Source: Halobaculum limi (lineage in GTDB: Archaea; Halobacteriota; Halobacteria; Halobacteriales; Haloferacaceae). Taken from it: 64,000 nucleotides of DNA. This document shows positions 9,437 to 26,901 of this stretch, one piece after another. Where the stretch lies: the NCBI RefSeq assembly GCF_029490015.1, contig NZ_CP120468.1:62001-126000 (forward strand). Reading direction: 5' to 3'. The position numbers and the translations under genes were made by a program. The stretch's first letter is position 1. Every line of letters begins with the position of its first letter. Under the pieces are notes generated by a model. That model ran no database searches, was not told the origin of the DNA, and saw only the letters and a program-made list of their open reading frames with translations.

Positions 9437-9486
9437 CCCTCCCCTACTCGCTCACGGCTGACGCCGTTCGCTCCTTGAGGGGAGGG
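9437..9486 (-). other. TnpB element right-end hairpin, candidate 3' end of omega RNA
   Basis: A 9-bp perfect inverted repeat, CCCTCCCCT (9437-9445) and AGGGGAGGG (9478-9486), encloses a smaller hairpin ACGGC-TGAC-GCCGT. The structure overlaps the last codons and stop of tnpB, as expected for IS200/IS605-family right ends. There the 3' part of the tnpB transcript is processed to the guide (omega) RNA; in Halobacterium similar sense-overlapping transcripts have been reported. If so, the guide would be read from the sequence just left of 9437, the end of livF. Confidence 0.6.
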
Positions 9487-12169: not shown

Positions 12170-12388
12170 TCAGACCACCTCGATGGGGTCACCGAGCTCG
12201 AAGCCGTAGTCGTCGATAGCCTCGCCCATCGCGTCGGGGAGTGACGCCTCGTAGCCGACCTCGAGGGTTCCGTGCTCGGCGTTGGCGTCGGCGAACGTCA
12301 CCGCCGAAAACGATTCGACTGCCGACTCGACCAGTACTTCACAGCCAGTACAACTCATTCCGCTCACGCGGTATTGCCGTCGTGGCAC
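12170..12388 (-). CDS. heavy-metal-associated (CopZ-like) metallochaperone
   Basis: 72 residues, a single HMA domain: a ferredoxin-like fold with metal-binding GMSCTGC near residues 10-16. Such proteins carry Cu(I) (or other soft metals) to P-type ATPases or permeases. A GTG start at 12388 places the first beta-strand (RQYRVSG) right after the N-terminus. It follows the TRASH-type permease gene by 74 bases on the same strand, which supports a role in metal handling with it. Confidence 0.88.
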   Translation of the reverse strand: MPRRQYRVSGMSCTGCEVLVESAVESFSAVTFADANAEHGTLEVGYEASLPDAMGEAIDDYGFELGDPIEVV

Positions 12389-12462
12389 AGATTACGAGAG
12401 GGGTGCAGAGGGGATAATTCGGGATCAGCGTACAGAAAATTGGACCGTTCGGGGCCGTGTCG

Positions 12463-13938
12463 TCAGTCCCACGCGCGGACCCGTGCCCGGGTGGCGTCGG
12501 TCCACGTCTCGAGGTCGTCGCGACAGCCGCGAAGGCGCGTGGCTACGACGTCGAGCAGGGCGCTCGCGGCGGCGGCACCGTCGCTGAGCGTCCGGCCGCC
12601 GCCGGCGAGGAATCCCGCGGCCATCGCTGTCAGCGTCAGTGCCGTAACGCCAGCCTCGGGCACGCGGAGCGCGACCGTCGCGAGGTGACGCGCCCCGTAG
12701 GTGACGTACAGTTCCGCGATGAACACCCCGGTGAACAGGAGGTTCAGCGGGAGCGTGTACCAGTCGGGGGCGGTGCCGTTGGTGACACCCGTCGGCGGGA
12801 TCAAGCCCGCGAATCCGAACAGGTAGTGGATGACAATGCCCGCGACGACGGAGGCGACGAACAGCACGACGAAGATGGTCGCGGCCATCCGCGTACCGTA
12901 GTACCGCCGGTACGCCGACACGAGCGGGGGGATGACCAGGTCGGCGTAGATGAACGCCAACACCCCGCCGAACGCGATACCATTGTTCCACAACACGAGC
13001 GCGAACGGGACGTTCCCGACCGAGCAGAGGAACGTGACGACGCCGACGAGCGTCGCGATCACGACGCTGGCGACGACCCACGTCGGCCCGCTCGATCCGA
13101 CGACCGTGAATAGGTCTAGCCAAGCCGACTGCGGAACGAACGCCTCCAACGCACCCGCGATGAGGAAGCCCAGTGCAATGTCGTGCCAGAGCATATCCCA
13201 CTCACGGATCGCGGTCCGGCCAGCTCGCTTCCACCCCTCGGCCGACACGAGCGGTCCCGCACCGGAGGCGTCATCCGTCGCCGCGGCGCCGATCCCGCCG
13301 GCGGTACTGGCACTGGCGTCCGGAAGTTCGTCGGTGTCGGCTTCCGCAGCGGCGACGAACGCGCGCTCACAGCCCCCACAACAGAAGTACTGCGGACGGC
13401 CATCGACCTCGGTGACGACTGTGTCAGGAGCGTCCGGGTCGGCGTCCATATTGCAGGCGGCACAGCGCGTGTCACCGAGTGCGAGTGCGTGTTCGCGGGC
13501 GGCGTCGATCCAGTCGTCGGGAACGTAGCGCCGGACGAGTCCGGCGACGACGACGACGGCGATCACCCCGCCGACGACGTCGGCGGCGACGAACTGCCAC
13601 CCGAGCAGTATCCACAGCACCAGCCCCAACTCGATGACGAGGTCTGTGCTGGCGAACATAAACGCCAGCGATGCGGTGAACGACGCGCCCTTCTCGACGA
13701 AGACGCGGGCCGTCGAGGTCGCCGAGTACGAACAACTGGACGAGGCGGCGCCGAAGGCGGTGGCGAGCCCGATAGTCTCCCAGTCGTCGTCACCGAGGAG
13801 GCTCGTCATCGCATCCTCGGAGACGAACTCGCCGACGACACCGGTGAGCGTGAATCCGAGGACGAGCGCCCACCACGTCTCCCACGCCATCCCGAGGGCA
13901 ACGCGGAGCGCCTCGACGAGTGCGACGAACAGCCCCAC
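12463..13938 (-). CDS. predicted permease with inserted TRASH-like metal-binding domain
   Basis: 491 residues. Two blocks of about four to five membrane helices each (about 5-135 and 245-460) belong to the DUF318/ArsP-like permease family; each half carries the conserved small-residue motif (AASSSCSYSAT at 63-73, VTFLCSVGNVPFA later). Between them lies a soluble insert with Cys159, Cys162, Cys186, Cys187 and Cys190 (CAAC, then YFCCGGCERAF), a TRASH/YHS-like metal site. The likely role is export or sensing of Cu or another soft metal. The gene starts at GTG 3 bases after the DUF2182 gene and is followed by the HMA chaperone. Confidence 0.85.
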   Translation of the reverse strand: MGLFVALVEALRVALGMAWETWWALVLGFTLTGVVGEFVSEDAMTSLLGDDDWETIGLATAFGAASSSCSYSATSTARVFVEKGASFTASLAFMFASTDLVIELGLVLWILLGWQFVAADVVGGVIAVVVVAGLVRRYVPDDWIDAAREHALALGDTRCAACNMDADPDAPDTVVTEVDGRPQYFCCGGCERAFVAAAEADTDELPDASASTAGGIGAAATDDASGAGPLVSAEGWKRAGRTAIREWDMLWHDIALGFLIAGALEAFVPQSAWLDLFTVVGSSGPTWVVASVVIATLVGVVTFLCSVGNVPFALVLWNNGIAFGGVLAFIYADLVIPPLVSAYRRYYGTRMAATIFVVLFVASVVAGIVIHYLFGFAGLIPPTGVTNGTAPDWYTLPLNLLFTGVFIAELYVTYGARHLATVALRVPEAGVTALTLTAMAAGFLAGGGRTLSDGAAAASALLDVVATRLRGCRDDLETWTDATRARVRAWD

Positions 13939-13941
13939 GGC

Positions 13942-14769
13942 TCAGAAGTAGCCGGGGACGCCGGTGAGGAGCACGCTTGCGGCTGTCCACAGCAGCATCG
14001 CGCCCACGGTCGCTGCAACCCGGTCGCCGTCGGTGGCGCGTTCGGCCGTGAACACGGCGGACAACAGCAGCATCCAGAACAGGTTCATCGTCCCGAACAC
14101 GACCATCAGTGAGCACAGCGCCCACGTGCAGGTAAAACACGACTTGAAGTGGCGAAGGCCGTCGCGGACCGCGCCCGCGACGAGGCCGTCGCCGCAGGAC
14201 GGCGTCATCGCACAGCAGGAGGCGACAGCGTCGCGCTTGTGGCGGGTGAACTGGTAGACGCCGGCGACGACCAGTGCCGCCGGAACGACGAACCGGCCGT
14301 ACGTCGTTGCGAGCGTGTTGACGTCGACGAGCACCTCGACGACCAGGGGTATCACCCCCGTCGTGACCCACGCGAGACTGTAGGCGCCGAGGAAGCCGGT
14401 GCCGACGAACAGTTTCGTGACCGCCGATCCGTCGACCGACTCGACGTAGTCCACGCTCCGGCTGAATACAGCCGGGTACATCATCGCGGCCATCATCACT
14501 CCCCACATGAGGAGGTACTGAGCAGCACCGGAGAACCCGGCGGCGACCGCGGCGGCTTCTGGAGCACCGGGAGCGGTCATCCCGAGTCCCGCCGGCATCT
14601 CGGGAAACGGAAGAACACCGGCGAACAACGCCGTCCAGAGGACGATCGTCAGTTTGCCGAGTGTGAGCGCCGTCGGCGAGAGGCCATCGGCGGTGGTCGT
14701 GCGTTCGAGGAATCGGACGACCGGGTCGGGGAGGATCCGGGTCGCGACTGTGACTTTGTCTTGAATCAT
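13942..14769 (-). CDS. DUF2182 predicted metal-binding integral membrane protein
   Basis: 275 residues from the ATG at 14769. The family hallmark MWGVMMAAMMYPAVFS is present, followed by several helices, a Cys-rich loop (SCCAMTPSCGDG) and SCFTCTWALCS in a helix. About seven to eight membrane segments. Members occur with copper and cytochrome-oxidase genes and are suspected of metal binding; their biochemical role is unknown. It forms a tight pair with the downstream permease (3-base gap). Confidence 0.88.
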   Translation of the reverse strand: MIQDKVTVATRILPDPVVRFLERTTTADGLSPTALTLGKLTIVLWTALFAGVLPFPEMPAGLGMTAPGAPEAAAVAAGFSGAAQYLLMWGVMMAAMMYPAVFSRSVDYVESVDGSAVTKLFVGTGFLGAYSLAWVTTGVIPLVVEVLVDVNTLATTYGRFVVPAALVVAGVYQFTRHKRDAVASCCAMTPSCGDGLVAGAVRDGLRHFKSCFTCTWALCSLMVVFGTMNLFWMLLLSAVFTAERATDGDRVAATVGAMLLWTAASVLLTGVPGYF

Positions 14770-14796
14770 TCGTGGTTGAGTGTTGGACTGCGTTCG

Positions 14797-14858
14797 GTGT
14801 GCGAGCGGTGCGACTCGGCGTGAATCGACTGCGGGAGTGGTGTGCGAGCGATGCGACT
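14797..14858. repeat. two copies of a 19-base motif upstream of the DUF2182 gene
   Basis: GTGTGCGAGCGGTGCGACT (14797-14815) and GTGTGCGAGCGATGCGACT (14840-14858), one mismatch, 43 bases apart. A third copy with three mismatches (21503-21521) lies in the other gene chain of this region. The surrounding 145-base gap (14770-14914) holds no gene I can support. Confidence 0.5.
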
Positions 14859-14914
14859 GCGGGAGTCGTGTTCGAGACGTCGCGGCCGCGAGGAGGGCGA
14901 CGGTGAGCGAGGAC

Positions 14915-15346
14915 TTACGGGACGCCGAGGCGGTCGTGTCGGCGGTAGAGGTAGCCTGCGCAGGCGGCGAAGGCGGTCGCGACCAGCGTCGGGACGCCAG
15001 CGACGATGCTCGCGTTGACGCCAAAGAACGCCTTCGTGCCGTAGGCGACGGTCGCCGGGACGGCGACGCTGGCGCCGAGGTACACCCACCAGGCCGGTTC
15101 CCAGCGGGCGTTCGCTCGGTCCAGTGCGACGCTGTCGCGAACGAGCGCGTACAGCGCACCGAGGCTCGCGACGACGAGCAGGACCAGCACGATGACCGTG
15201 AGCGACCCGGTCAGCACCGACGGAAGGCTGTTCCCGACGACCGGGATGGAGACGACGCCCAGCACCGTGACGAGCAGGTAGACGGCGAGGGCTCGCCAGT
15301 AGCGGCCAGTCACGTCGACGACTCCGTCGGTTCGGCGGGTCGTCAT
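14915..15346 (-). CDS. four-helix membrane protein of unknown function
   Basis: 143 residues with four hydrophobic segments (about 18-38, 45-68, 88-106, 112-132) and the N-terminus MTTRRTDGVVDVTG. The ATG overlaps the stop of the beta-propeller gene by four bases (ATGA), so it is translationally coupled to it. No motif was recognised. By position it could be a membrane partner of the propeller protein. Confidence 0.75.
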   Translation of the reverse strand: MTTRRTDGVVDVTGRYWRALAVYLLVTVLGVVSIPVVGNSLPSVLTGSLTVIVLVLLVVASLGALYALVRDSVALDRANARWEPAWWVYLGASVAVPATVAYGTKAFFGVNASIVAGVPTLVATAFAACAGYLYRRHDRLGVP

Positions 15347-16311
15347 CGCTCGATTACGGTGCCGGCGGCGCCGACGGCGACGTCGATTTCGCCGAGAGCG
15401 ATCCCCCGGAGGGTCGCTTCGGTCGCCGTCGTGGATGGAGTCCACCCAGCAGCGGTGCGCTCGACGACAGTGCCGTTTGCGCCGGCGACTGCGAACCGCC
15501 CGTCGTGGAAGTCGACTGTCCGCAGGGCCACGTGGGCGGTGTTGAGCGGCGTCCAGTTCTGGCAAGCGCGGTCGTAGCGGAACACGGTGCCGCCGCCGCC
15601 GGCGACGATCAGTCGGTCGGCGTCGGCGTACACGTCGGAGAAGTTCACTTGGGCGTTGCGAATGCCGATGTCTTCCCAGCCCTCGGTGGTCTCGGCGAAC
15701 ACGTTTCCGCTGGTGTCGATCGCGACGAAGCCGTCGTCACTGGCGGTGATAGCGGGGATCGTCGACCCCGACCCGGGTTTGACGACGTCGCCCCACTGGG
15801 GGCAGCCCTGCTCGTCTGTCGTCGCCGCCATCACCTCGCCGGAGCCGTTGGCGATGCGGAGCGTCTCGCTCCCGGCGGCACCGGAGACGGCGATCCCCTC
15901 CCACGTACTCGTCTTCTCGCGAGGAGCCGAGTAGTCGGACTTGCGCCCGGTCCTCACGTCGTAGTAGCCCAACGCACCCGAGGAGCCGGCGAACCAGACG
16001 CGTTCACCGTCGTCAGTCGCGGCCGCACAGGTGAGCGCGTACCCTCGTGCCTGCGGGCCATCCGGCACAGCGAGGCTCCACTCGCCGTCGCTGCGGAGCA
16101 AGCCAACCCCGCCGGCCCCGACCGCGAACGGACCCGCCGCCGTCGATACCACCTCGTTGAGCGGCTTCTCCGTCGGCACGTCGGCGACGGTCCAAGCGGG
16201 TCCGTCGCTCGCGTCGGTCGTCGAGTCCGTGGTCGAGTCGTCGGTACTCACGTCGTCATCACCTCCGCCGGTCGTCGCGTCACGGAGTCGGTCGGCGAGG
16301 GCGTCGAGCAT
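15343..16311 (-). CDS. BNR/YCF48-like beta-propeller protein without signal peptide
   Basis: 322 residues from the ATG at 16311. An acidic/Thr-rich N-terminal segment (residues about 15-40) is followed by repeated blade units of the type GPFAVGAGGVGLLR, VWFAGSSGALGYYD, RFAVAGANGTVVER and VAVGAAGTVIER. It shares the blade sequence SAPREKTSTWEG with the lipoprotein at 20327-21310 (SAPLGKTSSWEA), so the two are paralogues. It lacks an obvious Tat or Sec signal, unlike the paralogue. Propellers of this kind (for example YCF48/HCF136) assist assembly of membrane electron-transport complexes, which fits a region with oxidase subunit I. This role is inferred. Confidence 0.78.
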   Translation of the reverse strand: MLDALADRLRDATTGGGDDDVSTDDSTTDSTTDASDGPAWTVADVPTEKPLNEVVSTAAGPFAVGAGGVGLLRSDGEWSLAVPDGPQARGYALTCAAATDDGERVWFAGSSGALGYYDVRTGRKSDYSAPREKTSTWEGIAVSGAAGSETLRIANGSGEVMAATTDEQGCPQWGDVVKPGSGSTIPAITASDDGFVAIDTSGNVFAETTEGWEDIGIRNAQVNFSDVYADADRLIVAGGGGTVFRYDRACQNWTPLNTAHVALRTVDFHDGRFAVAGANGTVVERTAAGWTPSTTATEATLRGIALGEIDVAVGAAGTVIER

Positions 16312-16315
16312 CGGT

Positions 16316-16696
16316 TCACGCGCCCCCCTCCGCGTCGGCGGTGCTCCCGAACAGACACTGCGCCTCCCAGCGGATATGGGCGTGTAGCCGGCGGGCTGTC
16401 TCCTCGGTGAGTTTGTAACCGTTCGTCCGCCCATCGATCGGTCGAACGTCGACGTAGCCGTCTTCGGCCAACTCCGAGAGGTTGCGGTAGAAGCGGCCGT
16501 GCTTCACCTCGTCTGTCGGACACTGCGCTTGGACGGCCTCGTGAATCTCCCGTCCCGAGGGACGCGGTTCGTCCAACTGCGAGAGGATGAACAGGAGATT
16601 TAGCTTGAACCCACCGAGTTCGGTGAGGGGGGCGGGATCGAAGCTGGTTGGTCTGCGGATGGTACTCGTCGGTCTGAAGTCGGTAGTTGGATACAT
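16316..16696 (-). CDS. PadR-like winged-helix regulator
   Basis: 126 residues from the ATG at 16696. The core reads FKLNLLFILSQLDEPRPSG, then HGRFYRNLSELAEDGYVDV and a wing DGRTNGYKLTEE, the PadR-type winged helix, with a short C-terminal helix. It stops 4 bases before the propeller gene, so it is probably the first or second gene of that unit and may control it. Inducer unknown. Confidence 0.82.
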   Translation of the reverse strand: MYPTTDFRPTSTIRRPTSFDPAPLTELGGFKLNLLFILSQLDEPRPSGREIHEAVQAQCPTDEVKHGRFYRNLSELAEDGYVDVRPIDGRTNGYKLTEETARRLHAHIRWEAQCLFGSTADAEGGA

Positions 16697-16789
16697 CGGT
16701 GTGGCTTCGCTCTGAGAGATCGCTCGGCTGTAGAGTCGGTCGCGCGGTCGCGGACGGTTTCTGACGTGGTGCACGCGGCGGTCCCGAGT

Positions 16790-17104
16790 TCAGGGACCGA
16801 AGTTGGCCTGATGATCGCGGTACAGAACCGCGGCGACGAACAGGAACGGCAGGAGCGCCAACACAGTGACACCGAACGTCAACTGGAGTACCGGTGGGAA
16901 CGACGTCGTCGAGACGAGGAAGGTGATGGCGCCCGCGGCACCCGCGAGGAACAGCCCGATGCTGGCGATCGCCGACAGGAAGCCGGCCTTCCGTGCGGCC
17001 CACGGGAGGTTGTCCGAGCGCCGGAGCATCTTCAGCAGGATCGTCACCGGCGGGATCGCCAGTGCCTGCAGTTGGAGCATCGTGAGCGCGACGTCGGTAC
17101 TCAC
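16790..17104 (-). CDS. small three-helix membrane protein
   Basis: 104 residues from a GTG. Hydrophobic segments lie about 8-25, 44-66 and 72-94, with LLKMLRRSDNLPWAARKAG between the first two. No family recognised. It precedes the PadR gene by 93 bases on the same strand and probably begins the second transcription unit of this metal/respiration region. Confidence 0.65.
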   Translation of the reverse strand: MSTDVALTMLQLQALAIPPVTILLKMLRRSDNLPWAARKAGFLSAIASIGLFLAGAAGAITFLVSTTSFPPVLQLTFGVTVLALLPFLFVAAVLYRDHQANFGP

Positions 17105-17400
17105 GACGGTGGCCCCCGCGAGCGCGACGACTTCAGTTCGGGTACGACCGCGGCGACGAGCGGCCGGGAAACGGTCATCCTGGTGGCGCAGGCGGAGAGT
17201 GCGATTCGACGACTGGTATCGTATGGTTTATGTCTCATTGTCGATGGTCGGCCCGGTGGGTCGACGGTTCGGTCCCGAGCGCGGAGCGTTCGCTTCGCAC
17301 CCGGGAGTCATCCGCTGTTGCGTCGTCCCGGCCCGTGGCCACTCTTAGCCACTCAGAGAGATTATTTAATACTCAATGATTGTGGAATAAACTAGACTGT
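17105..17400. other. intergenic region between the oxidase chain and the PadR/propeller unit
   Basis: 296 bases without a supportable gene. Bases about 17358-17395 are AT-rich (ATTATTTAATACTCAATGATT) and directly follow the oxidase subunit I stop. On the minus strand TATTAAATAAT could act as a TATA region for the genes to the left, but this would imply a leader of about 250 bases. A smaller AT-rich patch lies near 17215-17240. Confidence 0.45.
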
Positions 17401-19008
17401 TCAGTCGAGATCGCTATCCTGTCTGGCGATCGGGTCGCCGTCGTCGCTGGCGGCCGTGTCAGCGATCCACTCGCGGGTTCGTGCCTCGCCGAGGTCCCAC
17501 ACGTCGCCAGAGACTCGTGGCCCAGCGAGTGCCGACCACGCCACGTTCACGAGCCAGGCGAGTTGCCCGGCGCCGAGCAGGTACGCGCCGACAGTGCTCA
17601 CGCGCTGGGCGGTCGCGAACGTCGCCGGGTACGTCGCTGTGCGGCGTGGGAGTCCGTCGAGTCCGATGAGCAACAGTGGAAGAAACGTCACCAAGACCCC
17701 GGTCACTGAACACCAGAAGTGGAGGCGAGCGAGGAACGGGTCGTACAGCCGCCCCGTCAGTAATGGGAACCAGTAGTAGACGGCCGCGAACGCTCCGAAA
17801 ACGGTCAACCCGACGAGCATGAGGTGGAAGTGCCCGACGACGTAGAACGTGTCGTGGAGCACGATGTCGATCGGGATGGATGCGAGGAACACGCCCGTGA
17901 CGCCCCCGAGGACGAACGTCGCGACCGCGCCCAGACAGAACAGCATCGGTGCCGTGAGCCGAATGGAGCCGTTCCACAGCGTCGCGATCCAGTTGAACGT
18001 CTTCACCGCAGAGGGGACGCCGATGGCGAGGGTAACAGCCATGAACGACGCTTTGAGTCGTGGGTCCAGTCCCGTCGTGAACATGTGGTGTGCCCAGACG
18101 CCGAACGAGAGCGTCCCGACCGCGAGCGTCGAGTAGACGACCGAGTTGCGGCCGAACAACTCTCGCCCCGCGAACTTCGGCAACACGTGACTGATCACGC
18201 CCATCGCGGGCAGTGCGAGCACGTACACTTCCGGGTGGCCCCAGAACCAGAACAGGTGTTGCCACAGCATCGGCCCGCCGCCGTCGACCGCGAAGTACGT
18301 CGTGCCGACGTTGCGGTCGAGCAGCAACATGAGCAGCGCCGACCCGAGGATCGGGAACGCAAACATCGCCAACCCCGCGGCGACGAGCATCGACCACGTG
18401 AACAGGTCGAGGCGGTCCCACGTGACCGCTGGCGCCCGCTCGGTGATCACGGTGACGACGACGTTGATCGACGCGAGGATCGTCCCGACGCCGGAGAGGT
18501 GCAGCCCCAAAAGCGTGAGGTCGACTGCCGGGTTTGTCGACTGCGTCGACAGCGGCGGGTACAGCGTCCAGCCGAGCGCGACAGGGGCCAGCGACTCGAC
18601 GCCAGGGAGCGCGAGTGCTACGGTGCCGGCGCGAACGAGTAGGATCGACGGGGGGAGTAGCCACACCGCGGTGGCGTTGGCCCGCGGGAACGCCATCTCG
18701 TCGGCGCCGATGAGCGGCGGCACGACGACGTTCGCCAGTCCGAAGAAGCCAGGCGTGGCGAACAAGAACACCATCGTCAGTCCGTGGGTTGTGAATAACT
18801 CGTCGTAGGTGGCCGCCTCGACGAGCGTCGCCTGTGGCGTCAACAGCGCCGTCCGGATCACCATCGCGTCGACCGCTCCCCACAGCCCCGCAACCGAGGC
18901 GAACACCAAGTAGAGGATACCGACTCGCCGGTGGTCAACCGTCGTCAGCCAACCGACCAGCCCCGTGGGGACGAGTCGCCGAGGAGAGCCGTGGGGACGG
19001 GGGCTCAC
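17401..19008 (-). CDS. haem-copper oxidase subunit I
   Basis: 535 residues, about 12 membrane helices. Low-spin haem ligands are His75 (TTHGLTM) and His395; haem a3 ligand is His393 (VGHFHLM). The CuB ligands are His258 (WGHPEVY, with Glu260 and cross-link Tyr262) and His307-His308 (VWAHHMF). The K-channel Lys336 is present (AVKTFNW). At the D-channel entrance A-type enzymes read GAPDMAFPR, while this protein reads GADEMAFPR, so Glu104 replaces the usual Asp. The GTG start overlaps the preceding gene (GTGA). No subunit II (CuA), III or haem A synthase gene is nearby. Confidence 0.93.
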   Translation of the reverse strand: MSPRPHGSPRRLVPTGLVGWLTTVDHRRVGILYLVFASVAGLWGAVDAMVIRTALLTPQATLVEAATYDELFTTHGLTMVFLFATPGFFGLANVVVPPLIGADEMAFPRANATAVWLLPPSILLVRAGTVALALPGVESLAPVALGWTLYPPLSTQSTNPAVDLTLLGLHLSGVGTILASINVVVTVITERAPAVTWDRLDLFTWSMLVAAGLAMFAFPILGSALLMLLLDRNVGTTYFAVDGGGPMLWQHLFWFWGHPEVYVLALPAMGVISHVLPKFAGRELFGRNSVVYSTLAVGTLSFGVWAHHMFTTGLDPRLKASFMAVTLAIGVPSAVKTFNWIATLWNGSIRLTAPMLFCLGAVATFVLGGVTGVFLASIPIDIVLHDTFYVVGHFHLMLVGLTVFGAFAAVYYWFPLLTGRLYDPFLARLHFWCSVTGVLVTFLPLLLIGLDGLPRRTATYPATFATAQRVSTVGAYLLGAGQLAWLVNVAWSALAGPRVSGDVWDLGEARTREWIADTAASDDGDPIARQDSDLD

Positions 19009-20330
19009 TCGGCGACCCCCCGAGCGACCCGACCGATCGCGGCTCGAATTTGCCGCCGGTACAGTTCGTACACGCCGACTGCAGCGACAAAGGCGGCGAG
19101 TCGGAAGGCGAACTCCGGCGCGAGCGCGTACGCAGCGGTCACAGGCACCACGGCGAGTGCGCGGGCAGCGGGTTGTGCCAGTCGGTAGGCGACTGCGAGT
19201 TCCGGGTCCAAGCTGTCGACCAGCCTCCGGCGAGCGGGGTCGGCGAGGCGTCGCGTGCCGTACAGTCCGAACGCGACTGCATCGGTCGCGATGGTCGGCG
19301 TGGGTTCGACGAGCGCCAGTGGCGCCACGACACCAGCGAGGAGTCCGAGCGCGAGGGTCGCTCGCCGCGAGGTCGCCGCCAGCAACACTTCCCCGGCGGC
19401 CGGGGCGACCGCAGCGGCGACCGCCTCCAGCCCGAGCAGCAGCGCGAACGCGGCAACCGGGCCGACGTCCAGCCACAACACCCGCTCGGCGGGCGTCCGC
19501 ACCGCGAGCACGAGGACGGGCGCGAACGCGACGAACGCGGCGACGGAGAGCCCACCCGCGACGTCGGCGACGAGTGCCGTCCGGATCGGCCGCGGTGCCG
19601 TCTGGAGGCGGCCGACGAGCGTCCGCGCCGAGCGGTCGGGCGCCGCCAGCGACGGCCGATCGTCGCCACGGAGTCGGCCTCCCCTCCCGTTGAGCGCGAC
19701 CGACACCATCGTCACGCCCAATCCGACGGTGACCGTCACCGCGAGCAGTAGTCCCACGACGACCGTGACTCGGTCGGTGAGCGCCGAGACGGCGAACGCG
19801 AACGCCAGCACCATCGGGCGGGCGAGCCGAGCGGTCGACGCCGCCGAGACGATCCGAACGAGCGTGTCGCCGCCGCCGCCGGCGTCGCTGCCGATCACAG
19901 CCCGGATCGCACGCAAGCCGGCGTCGTAGCCCGCGGTGGGCCAGACGGCGACGAGCGGTGCCACGAGGAGGACCCACGCCGACGCCGGAAGGACGTGACC
20001 GTTCACCCCCCCGATTCCTGGCGCGAGCAGCCACACTAACAGGCCGAAGGCGGCCACGAGCGCCAGCGGCGTCACAGCGGGGAACGAGCCGCTGAGGGCA
20101 GTGTCCTCCGCAGAGAGGGCGGGGTAGACGACCGGAACTCCGAGGACGACGAGGCCGAACGCGCCCAGCGCGACCGGGCCACCGCCGAGCGCGAGGAGGT
20201 AGGCGGGGGCGTACCGGAGCGTGACGGCGACGGCCGCGGTGTACCCGACTGTCACGAGTGCGAGTGTCGCCGGCTCCGAGCCGACGCGCTCGACGCCGCT
20301 CGCGAGGCGGACGAAGGAGTCGCGGGTCAC
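19005..20330 (-). CDS. MFS-like membrane protein
   Basis: 441 residues with about ten to twelve hydrophobic segments and a central cytoplasmic loop (about residues 215-250). Segments such as PRPIRTALVADVAGGLSVA and a late PEFAFRLAAFVAAVGVYEL resemble haloarchaeal major-facilitator transporters, but the usual loop 2-3 signature is weak. The call is therefore fold-level only and the substrate is unknown. GTG start overlaps the propeller lipoprotein and the stop overlaps oxidase subunit I, both by four bases, so its amount is tied to them. Confidence 0.65.
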   Translation of the reverse strand: MTRDSFVRLASGVERVGSEPATLALVTVGYTAAVAVTLRYAPAYLLALGGGPVALGAFGLVVLGVPVVYPALSAEDTALSGSFPAVTPLALVAAFGLLVWLLAPGIGGVNGHVLPASAWVLLVAPLVAVWPTAGYDAGLRAIRAVIGSDAGGGGDTLVRIVSAASTARLARPMVLAFAFAVSALTDRVTVVVGLLLAVTVTVGLGVTMVSVALNGRGGRLRGDDRPSLAAPDRSARTLVGRLQTAPRPIRTALVADVAGGLSVAAFVAFAPVLVLAVRTPAERVLWLDVGPVAAFALLLGLEAVAAAVAPAAGEVLLAATSRRATLALGLLAGVVAPLALVEPTPTIATDAVAFGLYGTRRLADPARRRLVDSLDPELAVAYRLAQPAARALAVVPVTAAYALAPEFAFRLAAFVAAVGVYELYRRQIRAAIGRVARGVAE

Positions 20331-21310
20331 GGGTCGTCCGGACGCGGGCGCTCGACGATCTCACCCGAGTCACCCACGGCGACCGGGGGGTACTGGCCTG
20401 CGCCAAGCGTCGCCCCGTGGAGCGCCGCCGACGCCTGCAGGGAGTCCTGTTGCCAGCCGTCCGGCGTCAGTTGGTAGATGACTCCCGACTCGCCGACGGC
20501 GAGTCCGCCGCGCTTGGTGCGGTCGATCGCGTGGAGGTCGGCCGTTCCGGCCTCAATAGTGGTCCAATCGAAGCCGTTGTACCGAAAGATACGGCCGTCT
20601 TGGGCGGCCGCTGCGGCGCGCTCCTCCCCGAACGGAGAGACGTCGAACAGCGAGTCGCTCGTGGTATCGATACCGATCCGACGCCACTCCTCCCGGTCGA
20701 CCGTCTTGAACACCTCACCGCCGGAGTCGACGACGTAGCCGAAGCCGTTGTCGCCGAACGCGACCGCCGTGCCAGTCGTCCCGCTACCGGGTTCGAACGG
20801 GTCGTCCCAGTCGACAGTTCCGTCGCCACCGTAGCGGCCCCGGAGCAGTTCCCCGGAGCCGTTGAGGAGGAACACCCACTCCTCGCCGGCGACGCCGAGG
20901 ACGCCGACGGCCTCCCAGGAACTGGTCTTCCCAAGCGGTGCAGAGAAGTCGGTCGACGTTCGTGTGACTACGTCGTAGCGACCGACCGCACCGGAGTCGC
21001 CTGCGGCCCACATCGCCCGCCCGTCGTCGGTCCCGTCGGCGTCGAACAGTGCATTGCCGCCGTTGCCCGGGCCGTGTTTGGAGACGGTTGCCCAACCGAG
21101 GTGACAGCGGGCGACGATCCGCCCAGACTCGCCGACAGCGTACGGACCGTCTCGGGTTGCAGTGACGGCGTACAAGGACTTCATCGTCGGCGACTCGACC
21201 GGTTCCCAGCGACTGGTGTCGTCATCGCCGCCGACACAGCCTGTCAACGCGAGCGTGCCGGCCGAACCGATCGCCGCGAGCGCCGCCCGTCGCGTCGGGT
21301 GGCGGATCAC
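20327..21310 (-). CDS. Tat-exported beta-propeller lipoprotein (BNR/YCF48-like)
   Basis: 327 residues from the GTG at 21310. The signal RHPTRRAALAAIGSAG ends in lipobox LTGC, so the protein should be lipid-anchored on the outer face. Repeated blades read GPYAVGESGRIV, MWAAGDSGAVGRYD, GYVVDSGGEVFK and LAVGESGVIY. It is a paralogue of 15343-16311. Being outside and encoded directly ahead of an MFS-like protein and oxidase subunit I, it could assist assembly or copper loading of the oxidase (inferred from YCF48-type proteins). Start chosen because the GTG overlaps the 89-aa gene stop (GTGA) and gives a clean signal. Confidence 0.82.
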   Translation of the reverse strand: MIRHPTRRAALAAIGSAGTLALTGCVGGDDDTSRWEPVESPTMKSLYAVTATRDGPYAVGESGRIVARCHLGWATVSKHGPGNGGNALFDADGTDDGRAMWAAGDSGAVGRYDVVTRTSTDFSAPLGKTSSWEAVGVLGVAGEEWVFLLNGSGELLRGRYGGDGTVDWDDPFEPGSGTTGTAVAFGDNGFGYVVDSGGEVFKTVDREEWRRIGIDTTSDSLFDVSPFGEERAAAAAQDGRIFRYNGFDWTTIEAGTADLHAIDRTKRGGLAVGESGVIYQLTPDGWQQDSLQASAALHGATLGAGQYPPVAVGDSGEIVERPRPDDP

Positions 21311-21576
21311 GGACCGACCTCCACGAGAGACGTACCCAGTGGCTCCAGCAGCCACACACTCAGCGGTCGGTCCCTCTGGGGGAGATCAGTCGGAGTGGTG
21401 ACGTCGCGGTACTCGGCGTGGTCGCAGCAGTCGTCGTGGTTGGTCTGGCTGTCCGTCTGGCGTCCGATGTCGTGTCTGTGCATGGTGTTGTGTACGCGTC
21501 GGGTGGTCGAGCGATGCGATTCGGTGTGACCCGCCGAGTCGGGTCGGCAGGGCGATAGGAGAGCAGTGGTCGTCAT
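21307..21576 (-). CDS. small hydrophilic protein, function unknown, coupled on both sides
   Basis: 89 residues. The ATG overlaps the stop of the 414-aa membrane protein (ATGA at 21573-21576) and its own stop overlaps the lipoprotein GTG (GTGA), which is good evidence for a real gene despite its lack of relatives I recognise. It is rich in His, Asp, Arg and Thr, with a NHDDCCDHAEY cluster that could bind a metal and a hydrophobic C-terminal stretch LSVWLLEPLGTSLVEV. An internal ATG at 21483 would give 58 residues. Part of its DNA (21503-21521) resembles the repeat found before the DUF2182 gene. Confidence 0.6.
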   Translation of the reverse strand: MTTTALLSPCRPDSAGHTESHRSTTRRVHNTMHRHDIGRQTDSQTNHDDCCDHAEYRDVTTPTDLPQRDRPLSVWLLEPLGTSLVEVGP

Positions 21577-22817
21577 CGCGGGGGACTGAACGGGCCGGGG
21601 GCAGCCGAACGCTGGACGACGGTCGACAGGCGGACGACGTGCGCAAACAGCACGGCGAACGGCGCGAACGCGGCCGCGAGCGAGGCGCTAACCAGCAGCA
21701 ACAAGGGAAACGCGTGGACCACCGGCGGGTAGCCGCTTGCGTAGATCATGACGACCAACGAGGCGGCGACCAGCGCGATCGCGCCGGTGTAGGCCAGTCG
21801 CCGCGAGAGACGAGCGAGCGAGCGCTGGATGTACAGCGTCGAGAAGTACTGCCCGGCGACTTCGAGCGTGGAGAGCGCCTCCTCGCTGTCGACGAGCGCC
21901 TCGCCGATGGCAGGGGGTGGATCGTTGCGCTCCCGGAGTCGACGGGAGGCAGCAAGACGGCTTCCGACCCCCTCGTCGAGCATCGGGAGTAGGACCTCGA
22001 ACGTCGCGTCGGCGGGGCGGCACCGCTCGGTCAGCCGGGTGGCCAGATCGGTAACAGCGACGCCGTGGTCGTGGATCGGTCCGTCGCGGCCGGCCGTCGC
22101 CGAGACGACGGCGTCTGCACGGTCGTCGACAGCGGCGACCAGACCGCGCGTGAACGCGACCGGGTCAGCCGTAGCCTCGGCGACAGCCCCGTCGAGCGCC
22201 TCCGCCTCAGCACGAAACTCGTCTATCTCCTCGAGTCGCTCGCGGTGGCTCTCTGGCGTCCCCGTCAACCACGTCAACGCGAGTTGGTTGACCCCGATCA
22301 CCACCGGGACAAACGAGAACAGCCCTGCGATGATAGTCGAGAACATCGTCGTGACGAAGTCGCTCTCGCGAACGCCGATGACGCCCGCGACGCCGAGGCC
22401 GAGGGTGCCGAAGAACACCACCGCGACGAAGGCGACGACGACGTGCGTGCGGTCGCCGGCGACGAGGAGCCAGCGGTTGGCGTCGTCGCGCGCTTCGCCG
22501 AACAGGATCTCACGGAAGCCGGTCAACAGCCACGAGAGGAGGGTCGCACCGACGCGGACGAGCAGCGTCGCGAGGGCGACCAGCAGTCGGGCGAGGACGC
22601 CGAAGAGCGTCGCCATCGCGTCGACGACTTCGCCGTCTTCGTGGGGTGTATTGCGGTCGATGCGCGCTTCGATGTGGTCGATGGTGTCCAGCGAATCGTC
22701 AACCCGCGTCGGCGGCGTTGGTTCGTCGCCGAGGGCGTCACCAGCGACGTCAGCCTGAGCGTCGCCACCGGTGGATCCGTCACCTCCGTCACCGCCGAAT
22801 CTGTCGTCGCGGGTCAC
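21573..22817 (-). CDS. membrane protein of unknown function
   Basis: 414 residues from the GTG at 22817, which overlaps the DUF389 stop (GTGA). An acidic Gly/Asp-rich N-terminal tail is followed by two helices near 70-100, two near 125-190, a long soluble coiled region (about 205-345, GTPESHRERLEEIDEFRAEA) and two C-terminal helices. Translation from further upstream would add only Arg/Pro-rich residues. Family not recognised. The co-translation with DUF389 and the propeller/oxidase genes suggests a membrane complex or a shared stress response. Confidence 0.75.
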   Translation of the reverse strand: MTRDDRFGGDGGDGSTGGDAQADVAGDALGDEPTPPTRVDDSLDTIDHIEARIDRNTPHEDGEVVDAMATLFGVLARLLVALATLLVRVGATLLSWLLTGFREILFGEARDDANRWLLVAGDRTHVVVAFVAVVFFGTLGLGVAGVIGVRESDFVTTMFSTIIAGLFSFVPVVIGVNQLALTWLTGTPESHRERLEEIDEFRAEAEALDGAVAEATADPVAFTRGLVAAVDDRADAVVSATAGRDGPIHDHGVAVTDLATRLTERCRPADATFEVLLPMLDEGVGSRLAASRRLRERNDPPPAIGEALVDSEEALSTLEVAGQYFSTLYIQRSLARLSRRLAYTGAIALVAASLVVMIYASGYPPVVHAFPLLLLVSASLAAAFAPFAVLFAHVVRLSTVVQRSAAPGPFSPPR

Positions 22818-23860
22818 AACAGTCCTCCAGTGAGGAGGTCGCCGTGTGACAACTCGACCAGCAGGAACGTGACGACACCCAACAGCGCGAGCAGGCCGGC
22901 GACGAGTTTCAGGATGTGACCACGGGTACGCCGCAGTTGTGTCCAGTTGTCTGGGTGGTAGCCCAGCGACCACAAGGAGACGACCGCTGCCAACTCAATG
23001 GCGACGAAGTTCAGCCCGTTGACAGCGAGCGCGCCGACGACGAGTCGGGGTGCCCACCAGACGAGACCGACGCCGGCGACGCCGACGGGCGGCACGAGTG
23101 CCGACGCGAGCATCACCTGCGTCACGACCGTCGAACCGTCCGTCGAGAGCCCGACGGCACCCGCGATGCCGGAACCGAGGGCGACGACGAGCAGTAACAT
23201 CGCCGAGGAGCCGAGACTGCTCGCGGAGACGACCGCGCTCGCGTCGAACACCCCGTCGGCGACCGGCGTGAGCCGAACCACGAGCGCGAAGCCGGTCGCG
23301 CTGGTGACACCGACGACGGTGCCCAGCGCCTGCATGAGCAGCCCGTCGCGTGCGAGGGAGTCGTCGCCGGTGACGGTGCCCACGCTGGCGGCCATCGCCG
23401 GCGCGAACAGCGGCGCGATCACCATCGCACCGAGGACGACCGTCAGGGAGTTCAACAGAAACCCTGCCGTCGCGAGCGTCGCGCCGATGGCCGTCAGCAA
23501 ACAGTAGATGCGCGTCGCCGGGAGGATGTCACGCGCCGTCGACCGGAGTTCGTCACGGGCGATGCGGCGGCTGTCGGTAGGAGAGGCCTCGCCCTCGTCT
23601 TCGCGCAGGTGGTTGAACCGATCGGAGACGACAGCCTCTGCGTCTTGAACGACGGTGTAGGTGTCGCCGGTGACGCCGAGGTCGTCGAGGCGGTCGAGCA
23701 CGGGTTCCACTGCATTCGCTGGCACCGGGAGCGACACCACCGTCGAGCCGTCGGTGTCGGAGCGATCCGTCACGACGTAGTCGAGTTCCTCCTCCTCCAA
23801 CGCCGTGAGCACCGGGTCGATCACCTCCGCCCGAGTGGCGAGAATCTCGACGAGCCGCAT
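22814..23860 (-). CDS. DUF389 family membrane protein
   Basis: 348 residues (ATG at 23860; an ATG at 23875 would add five). The N-terminal about 95 residues form a soluble ACT-like domain (MRLVEILATRAEVIDPVL, then VSLPVPANAVEPVLDRL). The C-terminal part has six to seven helices with the family motif LTVVLGAMVIAPLFAPAMAAS. The family is widespread but its function is unknown. It is the first gene of the overlapping six-gene minus-strand chain. Confidence 0.88.
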   Translation of the reverse strand: MRLVEILATRAEVIDPVLTALEEEELDYVVTDRSDTDGSTVVSLPVPANAVEPVLDRLDDLGVTGDTYTVVQDAEAVVSDRFNHLREDEGEASPTDSRRIARDELRSTARDILPATRIYCLLTAIGATLATAGFLLNSLTVVLGAMVIAPLFAPAMAASVGTVTGDDSLARDGLLMQALGTVVGVTSATGFALVVRLTPVADGVFDASAVVSASSLGSSAMLLLVVALGSGIAGAVGLSTDGSTVVTQVMLASALVPPVGVAGVGLVWWAPRLVVGALAVNGLNFVAIELAAVVSLWSLGYHPDNWTQLRRTRGHILKLVAGLLALLGVVTFLLVELSHGDLLTGGLL

Positions 23861-23884
23861 ATTCCGTTCGTGCATCCCGACGAC

Positions 23885-24451
23885 TCACCACCACCGCTCA
23901 CGAAGCGTCTCGGCTACGACGGCGTCGTCGAAGGCGGCCGTGTAGCGGGCGGCGATCGCGTTCCAGATGCGCTCCCCGCGGTCGCTCGGGTCACCCCGGC
24001 AGTCGGTCACACAGCGGGCGATCACTCCGTCGCCGACTGGGTGAAACCGCAGGTGGCCGTAACAGACGGGACAGCGCCACTCGGCGTGCGATCCCATCCA
24101 CTCGACGTCGTGGCCTGCACGACGAAGGCGCTCGGCGAGGGCGTACCAGACGACGACGTCCCAGACGGCCTCACCACCGCCGGCGCGCTTGAGACGGCGG
24201 ATCGCGAGCGCTGCCGCACGGTCGATCGACTCGTCGGCCGGTCCACTCGCGTTCCGACTGCGGCGGAAGTGGACGACGAGCGCCGTCGCCGACGAGCAGC
24301 GCTCGCCGTTCGTCAACTCGCCCGTCGGCTCGACGTCGGGCGGACTATCGTCGTCGATCGGGACTCGTTCGGCCCGCCCGCGATCGTCGTAGTGGAGTTC
24401 CTCAGACAGCGATGCACCGGTCGTCGGACAGAACGCGTTGCTACCTTTCAT
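23885..24451 (-). CDS. zinc-ribbon protein, function unknown
   Basis: 188 residues. The C-terminal half has CPVC (WRCPVCYGHLRF) and CVTDC (VIARCVTDCRGD), a likely single zinc site, followed by ERIWNAIAARY. The N-terminus (FCPTTGASLSEEL) has one more Cys. No enzyme motif. It ends 24 bases before the DUF389 start on the same strand, so it may be co-transcribed with the chain. Confidence 0.7.
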   Translation of the reverse strand: MKGSNAFCPTTGASLSEELHYDDRGRAERVPIDDDSPPDVEPTGELTNGERCSSATALVVHFRRSRNASGPADESIDRAAALAIRRLKRAGGGEAVWDVVVWYALAERLRRAGHDVEWMGSHAEWRCPVCYGHLRFHPVGDGVIARCVTDCRGDPSDRGERIWNAIAARYTAAFDDAVVAETLRERWW

Positions 24452-24648: not shown

Positions 24649-24948
24649 TTACCGCATCGAGACGACTGTCAGGAACACGAGCGCGACGAACTGCAGCGCC
24701 CGCATCGCCAGCACGGTCGACTGCGCGAGCGTCGACCCCGCGTACAGCATCCCCATATCGAAGAAGAAGAACAGGGCGACGAGGTTCTCGACGAGGAGGA
24801 CGACCGCGAAGCCGAGCAAGCCGAGCGTGAGCGGCGTGCGGAACGTTCGGTAGTTGCGCCCCCAGACGACGAGCAACGCCAGCAGGAGGACGACGTTTAG
24901 CGCCGAAAGGGCGCTCGCGACGGTCAACAGGGAGGTCATCTGAGCCAT
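24649..24948 (-). CDS. small membrane protein resembling DUF7521
   Basis: 99 residues with four hydrophobic segments (about 5-27, 41-62, 64-74 plus, 82-97) and a short basic loop GRNYRTFRTP after helix 1, the feature it shares with the two small membrane proteins at 61818-62368. It starts 2 bases after the winged-helix gene, so they are one unit. The likely role is a membrane sensor or partner for that regulator; this is inferred from the repeated pairing. A relic of a paralogue's 3' end is at 12013-12060. Confidence 0.75.
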   Translation of the reverse strand: MAQMTSLLTVASALSALNVVLLLALLVVWGRNYRTFRTPLTLGLLGFAVVLLVENLVALFFFFDMGMLYAGSTLAQSTVLAMRALQFVALVFLTVVSMR

Positions 24949-24950
24949 AG

Positions 24951-25277
24951 TCAGTCGGTGGTGTCGGTGTCGTCAGTGGTGTGGTGGTCACTCGGGTCGG
25001 TCGTGTCGATTCGATCGGTGATCCGCTCGAACGACTCGCGGTGGCGCTCGAAGCGATCGGTGAGGAAGTACAGTTTGCCGTACTCCTCGGCGCCGGGTTC
25101 GACCACGTCGTGGTCGACGAGCATATCGAGGTGATGCCGGACGGTGTTGTAGTCTACGTCGAGTTCGGCCGCCAGTTGGTTGGCGTTGCGCGGCCGGTCG
25201 TCGAGGATCCGGATGATCCGCGCGCGGTTGACGCCGCCGCGGGTGCCGGCCAGTAGATACCACAACGCCTTCTCCAT
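24951..25277 (-). CDS. winged-helix regulator (ArsR/HTH_20-like)
   Basis: 108 residues from the ATG at 25277 (MEKALWYLLAGTRGG). The core is INRARIIR-type helix, RPRNANQLAAELDVDYNTVRHHLDML (recognition helix TVRHHLDM) and a wing VVEPGAEEYGKLYFLT. The C-terminal tail is Asp/Thr-rich. Proteins that begin this way are common in haloarchaea beside small four-helix membrane proteins. It lies between the molybdoenzyme (62-base gap) and the membrane-protein gene (2-base gap), all on the minus strand. Confidence 0.85.
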   Translation of the reverse strand: MEKALWYLLAGTRGGVNRARIIRILDDRPRNANQLAAELDVDYNTVRHHLDMLVDHDVVEPGAEEYGKLYFLTDRFERHRESFERITDRIDTTDPSDHHTTDDTDTTD

Positions 25278-25339
25278 ACTGTGTACTCGGATATGCTCGG
25301 TGTATCGCCCTAAAACGTTCGCAGCCGCGAGCGTCGCCG

Positions 25340-26851
25340 TCACGCGTTCACGGTCCGTGACACCCAGCCTGCGGGGCCGTTGGGGAACGACCCCCGCTCG
25401 TCCTCCGGTTGGAGCGTGCCGGTGCCATCCGTCGCCCGGACGACCACCTCGTGTTCTGTGCCGGGCGAGTCGTAGCGGTGGACCCACTGGCGCCACACGT
25501 CGTCACCGGGAAGCGGTTCCGAGAGGGACGCATCCGTCCACGTCTCGCCGCCGTCGACGGACACCTCGACGCGGTCGACGCCGCGCGTCCCGGCGTAGGC
25601 GTGGCCTGCGACTTCGATGCGGCCGTCGTCGAGGCGGTTGATCACGTGGAGTTTGGCGACCGTCTCGACGGGGCCGGTGCCGTGCCAGCCGCGCTGTTCC
25701 CAGTAGCCGTCCATCGGTTCGTCGAGGATCTCGATCTCGGTGAGCCACTTGACGTTGATCTCACCCCAGTGACCGGGAATGAGCGCCCGGACGGGCGCGC
25801 CGTGGCCGCGGGGGAGCGGGGCGCCGTTCATTCCGTACGCGAGGAAGCCCGACCGGAGCGCAGACACGGAGAACTCCTCGAAGAAGCCGTCGGCCGCACG
25901 GAGCATCACGTACTCCCCCTGCGGGTTCGCTGCCTCGACGATGTCCATCAGCGGGGTGCCCGTCCAGAGGGCGTTGTCCATCTTCTTGCCGTTGAGTCGC
26001 TCGCCGACACAGCGGAGCGTGTTGAACCGATGTTCGGGGTCGCGACTCGTGAGGTCGTCGTAGGTGTACTCCGCTTCCATCTCGACAGCCCCCGTCACCG
26101 ACAGCGTCCACTCGTCCGGGTCGGGCGTTGGGTCGACCTGGTTGATGTCGACCGTGTAGAACTCGTCGCTGACGAGTGGCTCTAACCCCTCAACGTCCAG
26201 CGAGTTGTCGCGGGCCATCCCGAGGAGTTGGCCCTCGGGAGAGTCAGCGGGGACCGTCGCGTCGGCGTCGCCCGCCGAGACGGTGCGCCGAGAGCCGAGG
26301 ACGCCACCGGCGAACACGAGGCCGATGGCCGCCGCGAGACTCCCGAGGGCGGCCCGCCTCCCGGCCGGCGCGGGCTCTACCGACCGGCTGGCCAGCGTCG
26401 CAACGCCGAGCGGAATCGACGCACCGACCGTCGCCCCGAGCGCGGAGGCGGCGTCGCCGCCGAGTGCGAACGAGAAGAGGAGGACGGCCACCAGCGAGAG
26501 CGTCGTCGCGGCGACGGGGGCGTCGAATCGGTCGGCGTCGACGGCGGCCGCCGCGCGGTGAACCGTCCAGACGACGGCCGCGAACAGGAGGGCCGTGAGC
26601 GCGAGCGCCAGCAGGAACGCGAGGCTGTCGCCGAGGCTGCCGAGCAGCAGGATGGAGTAGCGGATGATGACGTCGGGTGTGGCCGCGACGACCACCTCGG
26701 CGACCGGAGCGGCGACGAACCCCGGGAGGCGGCCAGCGACCGCGAACGATCCGGCGACGGCACCGACTCCCGCCGCCACCGCGAGCAGAACCGCTGGGCC
26801 GTGCTCACGGACGACCGCCGCCAGCGCCGTGGTGCGTGCGTCGTGCTCCAT
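25340..26851 (-). CDS. sulfite-oxidase-fold molybdopterin oxidoreductase with membrane N-terminus
   Basis: 503 residues from the ATG at 26851 (an ATG at 26878 would add nine). About four to five hydrophobic segments (20-185) precede an extracytoplasmic domain with molybdenum-ligand Cys281 in LRCVGERLNG, the family patterns SALRSGFLAYGMNG and LPRGHGAPVRALIPGHWGE, and a C-terminal Mo-co dimerisation domain (VDRVEVSVDGGETW). It probably oxidises or reduces a small S- or N-compound at the outer membrane face; substrate unknown. It is the first gene before the winged-helix/DUF7521-like pair. Period-11 repeats lie just upstream. Confidence 0.9.
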   Translation of the reverse strand: MEHDARTTALAAVVREHGPAVLLAVAAGVGAVAGSFAVAGRLPGFVAAPVAEVVVAATPDVIIRYSILLLGSLGDSLAFLLALALTALLFAAVVWTVHRAAAAVDADRFDAPVAATTLSLVAVLLFSFALGGDAASALGATVGASIPLGVATLASRSVEPAPAGRRAALGSLAAAIGLVFAGGVLGSRRTVSAGDADATVPADSPEGQLLGMARDNSLDVEGLEPLVSDEFYTVDINQVDPTPDPDEWTLSVTGAVEMEAEYTYDDLTSRDPEHRFNTLRCVGERLNGKKMDNALWTGTPLMDIVEAANPQGEYVMLRAADGFFEEFSVSALRSGFLAYGMNGAPLPRGHGAPVRALIPGHWGEINVKWLTEIEILDEPMDGYWEQRGWHGTGPVETVAKLHVINRLDDGRIEVAGHAYAGTRGVDRVEVSVDGGETWTDASLSEPLPGDDVWRQWVHRYDSPGTEHEVVVRATDGTGTLQPEDERGSFPNGPAGWVSRTVNA

Positions 26852-26901
26852 ACTGACACGAACGGCGTTCTGCGTCATAGGGATTGTTCGAACTCGGGGC
26901 G

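Follow-up and report, generated by a model that had tools for sequence, protein, structure and literature searches.

An A-type haem-copper oxidase subunit I gene in a conserved haloarchaeal cluster with putative copper-handling proteins

A 64,000-nucleotide stretch of the Halobaculum limi contig NZ_CP120468.1, referred to here as the window, carries a gene cluster arranged around COX1, the gene for subunit I of an A-type haem-copper oxidase. All coordinates are window positions. The initial annotation of this DNA described six genes ending in COX1 (17401-23860), which represent only half of the conserved unit. The complete unit spans 12170-24451, about 12.3 kb, with every gene on the minus strand (Table 1). 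To the six genes it adds a CopZ-like heavy-metal-associated (HMA) chaperone, an ArsP_1/Cu-Zn-efflux-like permease and a PpoB2-type copper chaperone, as well as a second YCF48-like propeller, a PadR-like regulator and a zinc-ribbon-like protein. The copper genes, located downstream of COX1 in the window (12170-14769), are the most telling part of the cluster and had been missed.

Table 1. Genes of the conserved unit in the window, from the first gene of the block onwards (aa, amino acids; ORF, open reading frame; MFS, major facilitator superfamily).
Feature	Position	Strand	Evidence
up188, 188 aa, zinc-ribbon-like CPxC...C...C motif, first gene of block	23885..24451	-	homologues co-located in most cluster loci
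DUF389 / TIGR00341-like membrane protein	22814..23875 (start 23875 or 23860)	-	PF04087 E 1e-23
M414, 414-aa membrane protein, expanded haloarchaeal family	21573..22817	-	relatives in 126/146 genomes of the order
S89, 89-aa ORF, doubtful	21307..21576	-	negative codon score
LIPO, lipobox-bearing beta-propeller (HVO_0234/YCF48-like)	20327..21310	-	PF23366 E 1.4e-6
MFS-type transporter	19005..20330	-	MFS_1 in 4/13 orthologues; adjoins COX1 in 27/28 scored loci
COX1, A-type haem-copper oxidase subunit I	17401..19008	-	PF00115 E 6e-142
w104, 104-aa hydrophobic conserved protein	16790..17104	-	homologues co-located in most cluster loci
PadR-like winged-helix regulator	16316..16696	-	PF03551 E 5.7e-5, slightly below cut-off; co-located in most loci
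PROP2, second propeller, LIPO homologue	15343..16311	-	co-located in most loci
w143, 143-aa membrane protein, 4-base overlap with PROP2	14915..15346	-	H. litoreum counterpart, same place
PpoB2/DUF2182 copper-chaperone-type membrane protein, 275 aa	13942..14769	-	PF09948 113.9 bits (cut-off 28.7)
ArsP_1-type permease, 491 aa, Cu/Zn-efflux-like, CxxC...CCxxC metal-binding loop	12463..13938	-	PF03773 E 1.8e-68
CopZ-like HMA chaperone, GMxCxxC, 65 aa	12170..12367	-	PF00403 E 7.3e-8, above cut-off

The COX1 protein matches PF00115 with 474 bits, and its best NCBIfam model is CtaD (617.7 bits, below the CtaD cut-off). The nearest solved chains are the COX1 subunits of cytochrome c oxidases. Among haloarchaeal COX1 the cluster copies form one distinct clade (SH-like approximate likelihood ratio test, SH-aLRT, 100), and their haem a and haem a3-CuB site is intact. 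The six histidine ligands of haem a, haem a3 and CuB are present in 28 of 28 cluster COX1, as are the active-site tyrosine, the K-channel lysine and both arginines, and the window protein bears all metal ligands together with Tyr262, Lys336 and Glu260. Comparisons with other oxidases used residue numbers of the bovine, Paracoccus and E. coli enzymes and a segment of E. coli CyoB. A nitric-oxide-reductase identity of COX1 is disfavoured, the tyrosine and the CtaD-type features being kept.

Three copper or soft-metal proteins travel with this COX1, and their genes were found at none of the non-cluster haloarchaeal COX1 loci inspected. PpoB2 has a conserved MMxxMM motif and conserved cysteine residues, and its counterpart in Marinomonas is specific in passing copper to the tyrosinase of the same operon (PMC2855505). 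The permease, a strong ArsP_1 match, has five conserved cysteines in its loop (C159, C162, C186, C187 and C190). For the HMA protein, CopZ models are the best by E-value, at scores below their cut-off.

The conservation of the cluster was examined with the M414 and MFS proteins as queries against 146 genomes of the order, and both turned up in the same 14 genomes, the window's included, at a distance of 4-5 kb from each other. The 13 of these regions that were annotated share the block up188-DUF389-M414-[PpoB2]-LIPO-[HMA]-ArsP_1 permease-MFS-COX1; PadR, PROP2 and w104 come after it in an order that varies. A scan of named genomes added loci in Halobaculum, Haladaptatus, Haloprofundus, Halomarina, Halosimplex and Natrinema, and in Natrialba, Haloterrigena, Halovivax, Saliphagus and Natronoglomus. 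The shared gene set, largely in the same order, is thereby seen at about 30 loci, both chromosomal and plasmid-borne, in several haloarchaeal families; these loci do not amount to 30 independent species, as some numbered genomes may match named ones. The relatives' genes were called by a codon-based caller, with the lower-GC (guanine-cytosine) regions L070 and L109 (L and G numbers are our labels for related loci and genomes) checked by tblastn instead; the Halobaculum litoreum region (L108) contains frameshifts relative to the window. In Natrialbaceae the gene set is divided into two divergent operons and includes a Glu/Leu/Phe/Val-dehydrogenase-like gene, and in some other genomes the permease and PpoB2 genes sit between LIPO and MFS. 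Within the genus Halobaculum the cluster is all-or-none: it is carried by 2 of 11 genomes, and cluster-type COX1, LIPO and permease were found in none of the remaining nine.

The genes of the cluster, in short, stay together. The joint function first proposed for the six genes is supported by this recurrence in distant haloarchaea, and the scattering in close relatives that would argue otherwise was not seen, those relatives being without the whole set. Literature that we found does not contradict the statement that no described oxidase operon has such content, and a description of the cluster was found in none of the open-access papers searched. Haloarchaeal genes are densely packed and often overlap, so that neighbours without joint function could be brought together in an ordinary way; with content conserved over several families and an all-or-none occurrence in one genus, we find this scarcely credible. 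At three loci (L065, L066 and L068) there come after the cluster genes for a membrane protein of 136-141 aa, a protein with a TrkA-C domain and one resembling Na+/H+ antiporters, the latter two being named by Pfam in L065 and by likeness in L066 and L068.

The five 4-base junctions reported for the six genes are all present on the minus strand in the claimed order: GTGA between DUF389 and M414 (22817), ATGA between M414 and S89 (21576), and GTGA between S89 and LIPO (21310), LIPO and the MFS-like gene (20330), and the MFS-like gene and COX1 (19008). The identities given to the genes held in part. Profiles bear out DUF389, COX1 and a propeller in the lipoprotein, the MFS assignment draws on relatives and a low-confidence model, and the 89-aa protein is doubtful. 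S89 scores -0.125 per codon, against +0.19 to +0.27 in the other five ORFs, and a homologue search in 20 cluster loci gave no significant match. In H. litoreum the S89 stretch does not align, though the flanks are about 81% identical on both sides; a frame of about 64 codons, read from the sequence, stands at its place, likewise between ATGA and GTGA. This positional counterpart in the nearest relative is the only one known here, and in several other genomes the M414 gene directly overlaps the LIPO gene. Codon score, homologue search and alignment thus leave S89 unsupported as a conserved component. It is probably a spacer ORF, and it is possible that a short coupling ORF exists in the lineage of the window and H. 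litoreum. Because S89 is doubtful, three of the overlaps join well-supported genes.

How unusual are these overlaps? In the window they join 10 of 48 co-directional pairs (21%). At the related loci they join 45 of 192 pairs between cluster genes against 46 of 415 pairs outside (Fisher p = 1.3e-4, with related loci treated as if independent, which they are not). The overlaps are therefore enriched in the cluster, not extraordinary. An exact -4 overlap recurs between MFS and COX1 in 14 of 27 loci and between DUF389 and M414 in 11 of 18, and at most junctions the overlaps differ between relatives. The strict coupling had been taken to imply a fixed stoichiometry; this does not follow, because 4-base overlaps are so common, and the claim was dropped, as they also vary among relatives and one of the coupled genes is probably not a gene. 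The recurring exact overlaps speak for a single complex of the six proteins, held in proportion by translational coupling. Such a complex is very improbable, given the frequency of 4-base overlaps in the genome, the doubt about S89, the intervention of permease and PpoB2 genes between LIPO and MFS elsewhere, and the divergent operons of Natrialbaceae.

The other proteins of the cluster are less well defined. In up188 the conserved columns are C127, P128, C130, C147 and C151, and no Pfam family exceeds its cut-off. The DUF389 protein passes the PF04087 cut-off and lies just below that of TIGR00341 (90.5 bits, cut-off 94.75). No convincing Pfam family was found for M414. For a homologue of M414 on a Natrinema zhouii plasmid (L156, 1885-3360) the public record gives the name "cbb3-type cytochrome c oxidase subunit I", which profiles do not support and which we treat as a naming error. 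The lipobox residues G24 and C25 of LIPO are invariant, and the YCF48 profile PF14870 is matched by 5 of 12 orthologues, the window protein not among them. PROP2 retrieves LIPO by tblastn at 36-38% identity. The MFS-like protein has no Pfam match in the window, and MFS transporters head its PDB fold matches (lowest E 1.8e-3), which come from a low-confidence model with a predicted local distance difference test (pLDDT) value of 57. The w143 protein is 86.7% identical to its H. litoreum counterpart and has a weak homologue in L077.

The usual partner of an oxidase subunit I is mostly lacking here: no CuA subunit II gene adjoins the cluster COX1 except at one locus. A PF00116 (COX2) match near the cluster COX1 was found in none of the 14 genomes searched, all of which have COX2 genes elsewhere. 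A CuA motif scan was negative at 26 of 27 loci, with the expected match at three control loci. The exception is Halosimplex aquaticum (L150), where a CuA-bearing COX2 lies 3.4 kb downstream of COX1. More COX1 than COX2 genes are present in G092 (four COX1, one COX2 match), in G000 and in other haloarchaeal genomes, so that one subunit II may serve several subunits I, or these may function without one. Other lone COX1 genes, on haloarchaeal plasmids (L155, L158 and L164), are paired convergently with a DUF6789 gene and have no COX2 or copper genes nearby.

The missing neighbour would also suit an oxidase free of CuA, in which COX1 receives electrons straight from menaquinol near the low-spin haem, like the quinol oxidases. 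An aspartate equivalent to Asp75 of E. coli cytochrome bo3 is invariant in the cluster clade (28/28, against 9/34 other COX1). This is weak evidence, because the equivalents of bo3 Arg71 and His98 are not kept and the aspartate also occurs in some COX1 encoded beside a coxB; for the same reasons it was rejected as proof of a quinol oxidase. Electron transfer in haloarchaea without a bc1 complex is an unresolved question (PMC8305020), and the one Natrialbaceae-type genome tested lacks a Cytochrom_B_N_2 match. Against this stands a cytochrome-b-type gene in 13 of 14 cluster genomes, for which reason bc1 absence was also discarded as an explanation of the cluster. With the CuA subunit of H. aquaticum added, a CuA-free oxidase appears unlikely.

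The D-channel of the cluster COX1 divides the clade. D-channel residues include Asp124, Asn131, Ser134, Asn199 and Glu278 (PMC3084760). By alignment, the window protein keeps the glutamate and two asparagines, with the aspartate replaced by glutamate and Ser134 by alanine. The glutamate is present in 16 of 16 non-Natrialbaceae copies versus 1 of 12 Natrialbaceae-type copies (10 leucine, 1 glutamine), and the entry aspartate is kept in 4 of the latter and replaced in 8. Ten of these 12 read FAHPLVY in place of FGHPEVY, with metal ligands intact (L077, L118/L146, L139-L145, L148 and L149). Judged from the sequences, the loss of the glutamate is apparently under constraint. A published classifier separates the A types by D-channel residues, and the B and C types by their absence and a different K-channel (PMC3084760). 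Because they have the A-type K-channel lysine with the D-channel mostly lost, Natrialbaceae-type COX1 fall outside its categories. A further-reaching proposal, a menaquinol-fed, CuA-independent oxidase with PpoB2-supplied CuB, whose Natrialbaceae form would lack the proton-pumping D-channel and represent a type outside the A/B/C scheme, we regard as decidedly unlikely.

We hold, with moderate confidence, that the cluster encodes an alternative subunit I of an A-type oxygen reductase along with a copper-loading module dedicated to it, and that subunit II is supplied in trans. The conserved block of copper genes and obscure membrane genes around COX1 suggests a dedicated, undescribed route for building an alternative oxidase. 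Which way copper flows, what the propellers do and how electrons arrive we infer as follows. The CopZ-like protein would carry Cu(I) in the cytoplasm, the permease would move it outwards, and the PpoB2-type membrane protein would hand it to CuB of COX1. Assembly or anchoring could be the task of the two extracytoplasmic propellers and of the membrane proteins DUF389, M414 and w104, with the PadR-like and zinc-ribbon-like proteins as putative regulators of the gene set. Electrons may reach COX1 by way of a CuA subunit II whose gene lies elsewhere in the genome.

Several observations weigh against this copper-loading model. The best NCBIfam model of the permease is the SO_0444 Cu/Zn efflux protein (69.8 bits, cut-off 300); with an efflux protein as the closest relative that bears a name, the copper genes could instead be there for detoxification. 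In the window, w104, PadR, PROP2, w143 and a gap of about 300 bp stand between COX1 and the PpoB2, permease and HMA genes. M414, DUF389 and w104 are without known function or fold match; a low-confidence model of M414 (pLDDT 65) gave none in the PDB at E<=0.001. Across 27 orthologues the MFS protein has no cysteine, histidine or methionine (beyond M1) conserved at 85%. CcoA-type MFS copper importers are marked by conserved Met/His copper-binding motifs, and a CcoA-like importer was rejected for lack of conserved metal ligands. Other cluster genomes also lack a close orthologue of the H. aquaticum COX2 (best 41-46% identity), and a dedicated unlinked COX2 was rejected on that ground.

The permease match thus opens the way to another reading, that of a copper/zinc stress and efflux island, in which permease, CopZ-like chaperone and PpoB2 would lower copper while a spare COX1 replaces the metal-damaged subunit or acts as a copper sink. 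The patchy, often plasmid-borne occurrence resembles that of resistance islands, and a PadR-like regulator is at hand. However, the cluster genes include no recognised P1B-type ATPase or multicopper oxidase, and the known role of PpoB2 is to donate copper to an enzyme. COX1 and its neighbour also belong to the most constant part of the set, and the two propellers would have no role in efflux. An efflux island is doubtful, though we give it the most weight among the alternatives.

Two neighbouring features lie outside the unit. Near its downstream end is a gene for a TnpB-family (IS200/IS605) RNA-guided endonuclease of 423 aa (9444-10715, minus strand, NF040570 E 2e-83), with codon usage atypical for the window. 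Upstream, a separate minus-strand group (24649-26878) encodes a 99-aa membrane protein, a helix-turn-helix regulator and, as a relative of the sulfite dehydrogenases, a membrane-anchored molybdopterin oxidoreductase.

The copper-loading model, if right, points to an undescribed archaeal route for building a haem-copper oxidase. The PpoB2-type chaperone represents a candidate CuB donor, and in the literature we found no archaeal factor named for this. The cluster also bears on electron and proton delivery to terminal oxidases in haloarchaea, many of which have no bc1 complex. In the Natrialbaceae-type copies the active site is intact and the D-channel mostly gone, which offers a natural test of the need for this channel.

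The novelty of the cluster is that of known families in a new combination, as comparison with described systems makes clear. In YCF48, the photosystem II assembly propeller, the likeness is by analogy: the cluster propeller is of an extracytoplasmic type with a weak profile match, reached by less than half of the LIPO orthologues, there is no photosystem here, and an assembly role would be analogous. The role proposed for the copper genes, loading of CuB or CuA, is like that of the bacterial oxidase assembly factors Sco, PCuAC, Cox11/Caa3_CtaG and Surf1. No member of these families was identified in the cluster of the window, and a review of oxidase assembly factors does not name PpoB2 (COG5486/DUF2182) (PMC9145763). 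The type A haem-copper oxygen reductases (aa3-type subunit I, CtaD/CoxA) are alike in sequence, in haem and CuB ligands, and in the tyrosine and K-channel lysine. The cluster COX1, however, has no COX2 or COX3 alongside in nearly all loci, forms a separate clade, has copper genes as companions and, in its Natrialbaceae type, is largely without the D-channel. With the Marinomonas ppoB operon, which encodes the tyrosinase PpoB1 and PpoB2, the cluster shares the pairing of a copper enzyme with a PpoB2-type membrane chaperone; here the enzyme is a haem-copper oxidase subunit, and the permease, the HMA protein and the propellers are additional.

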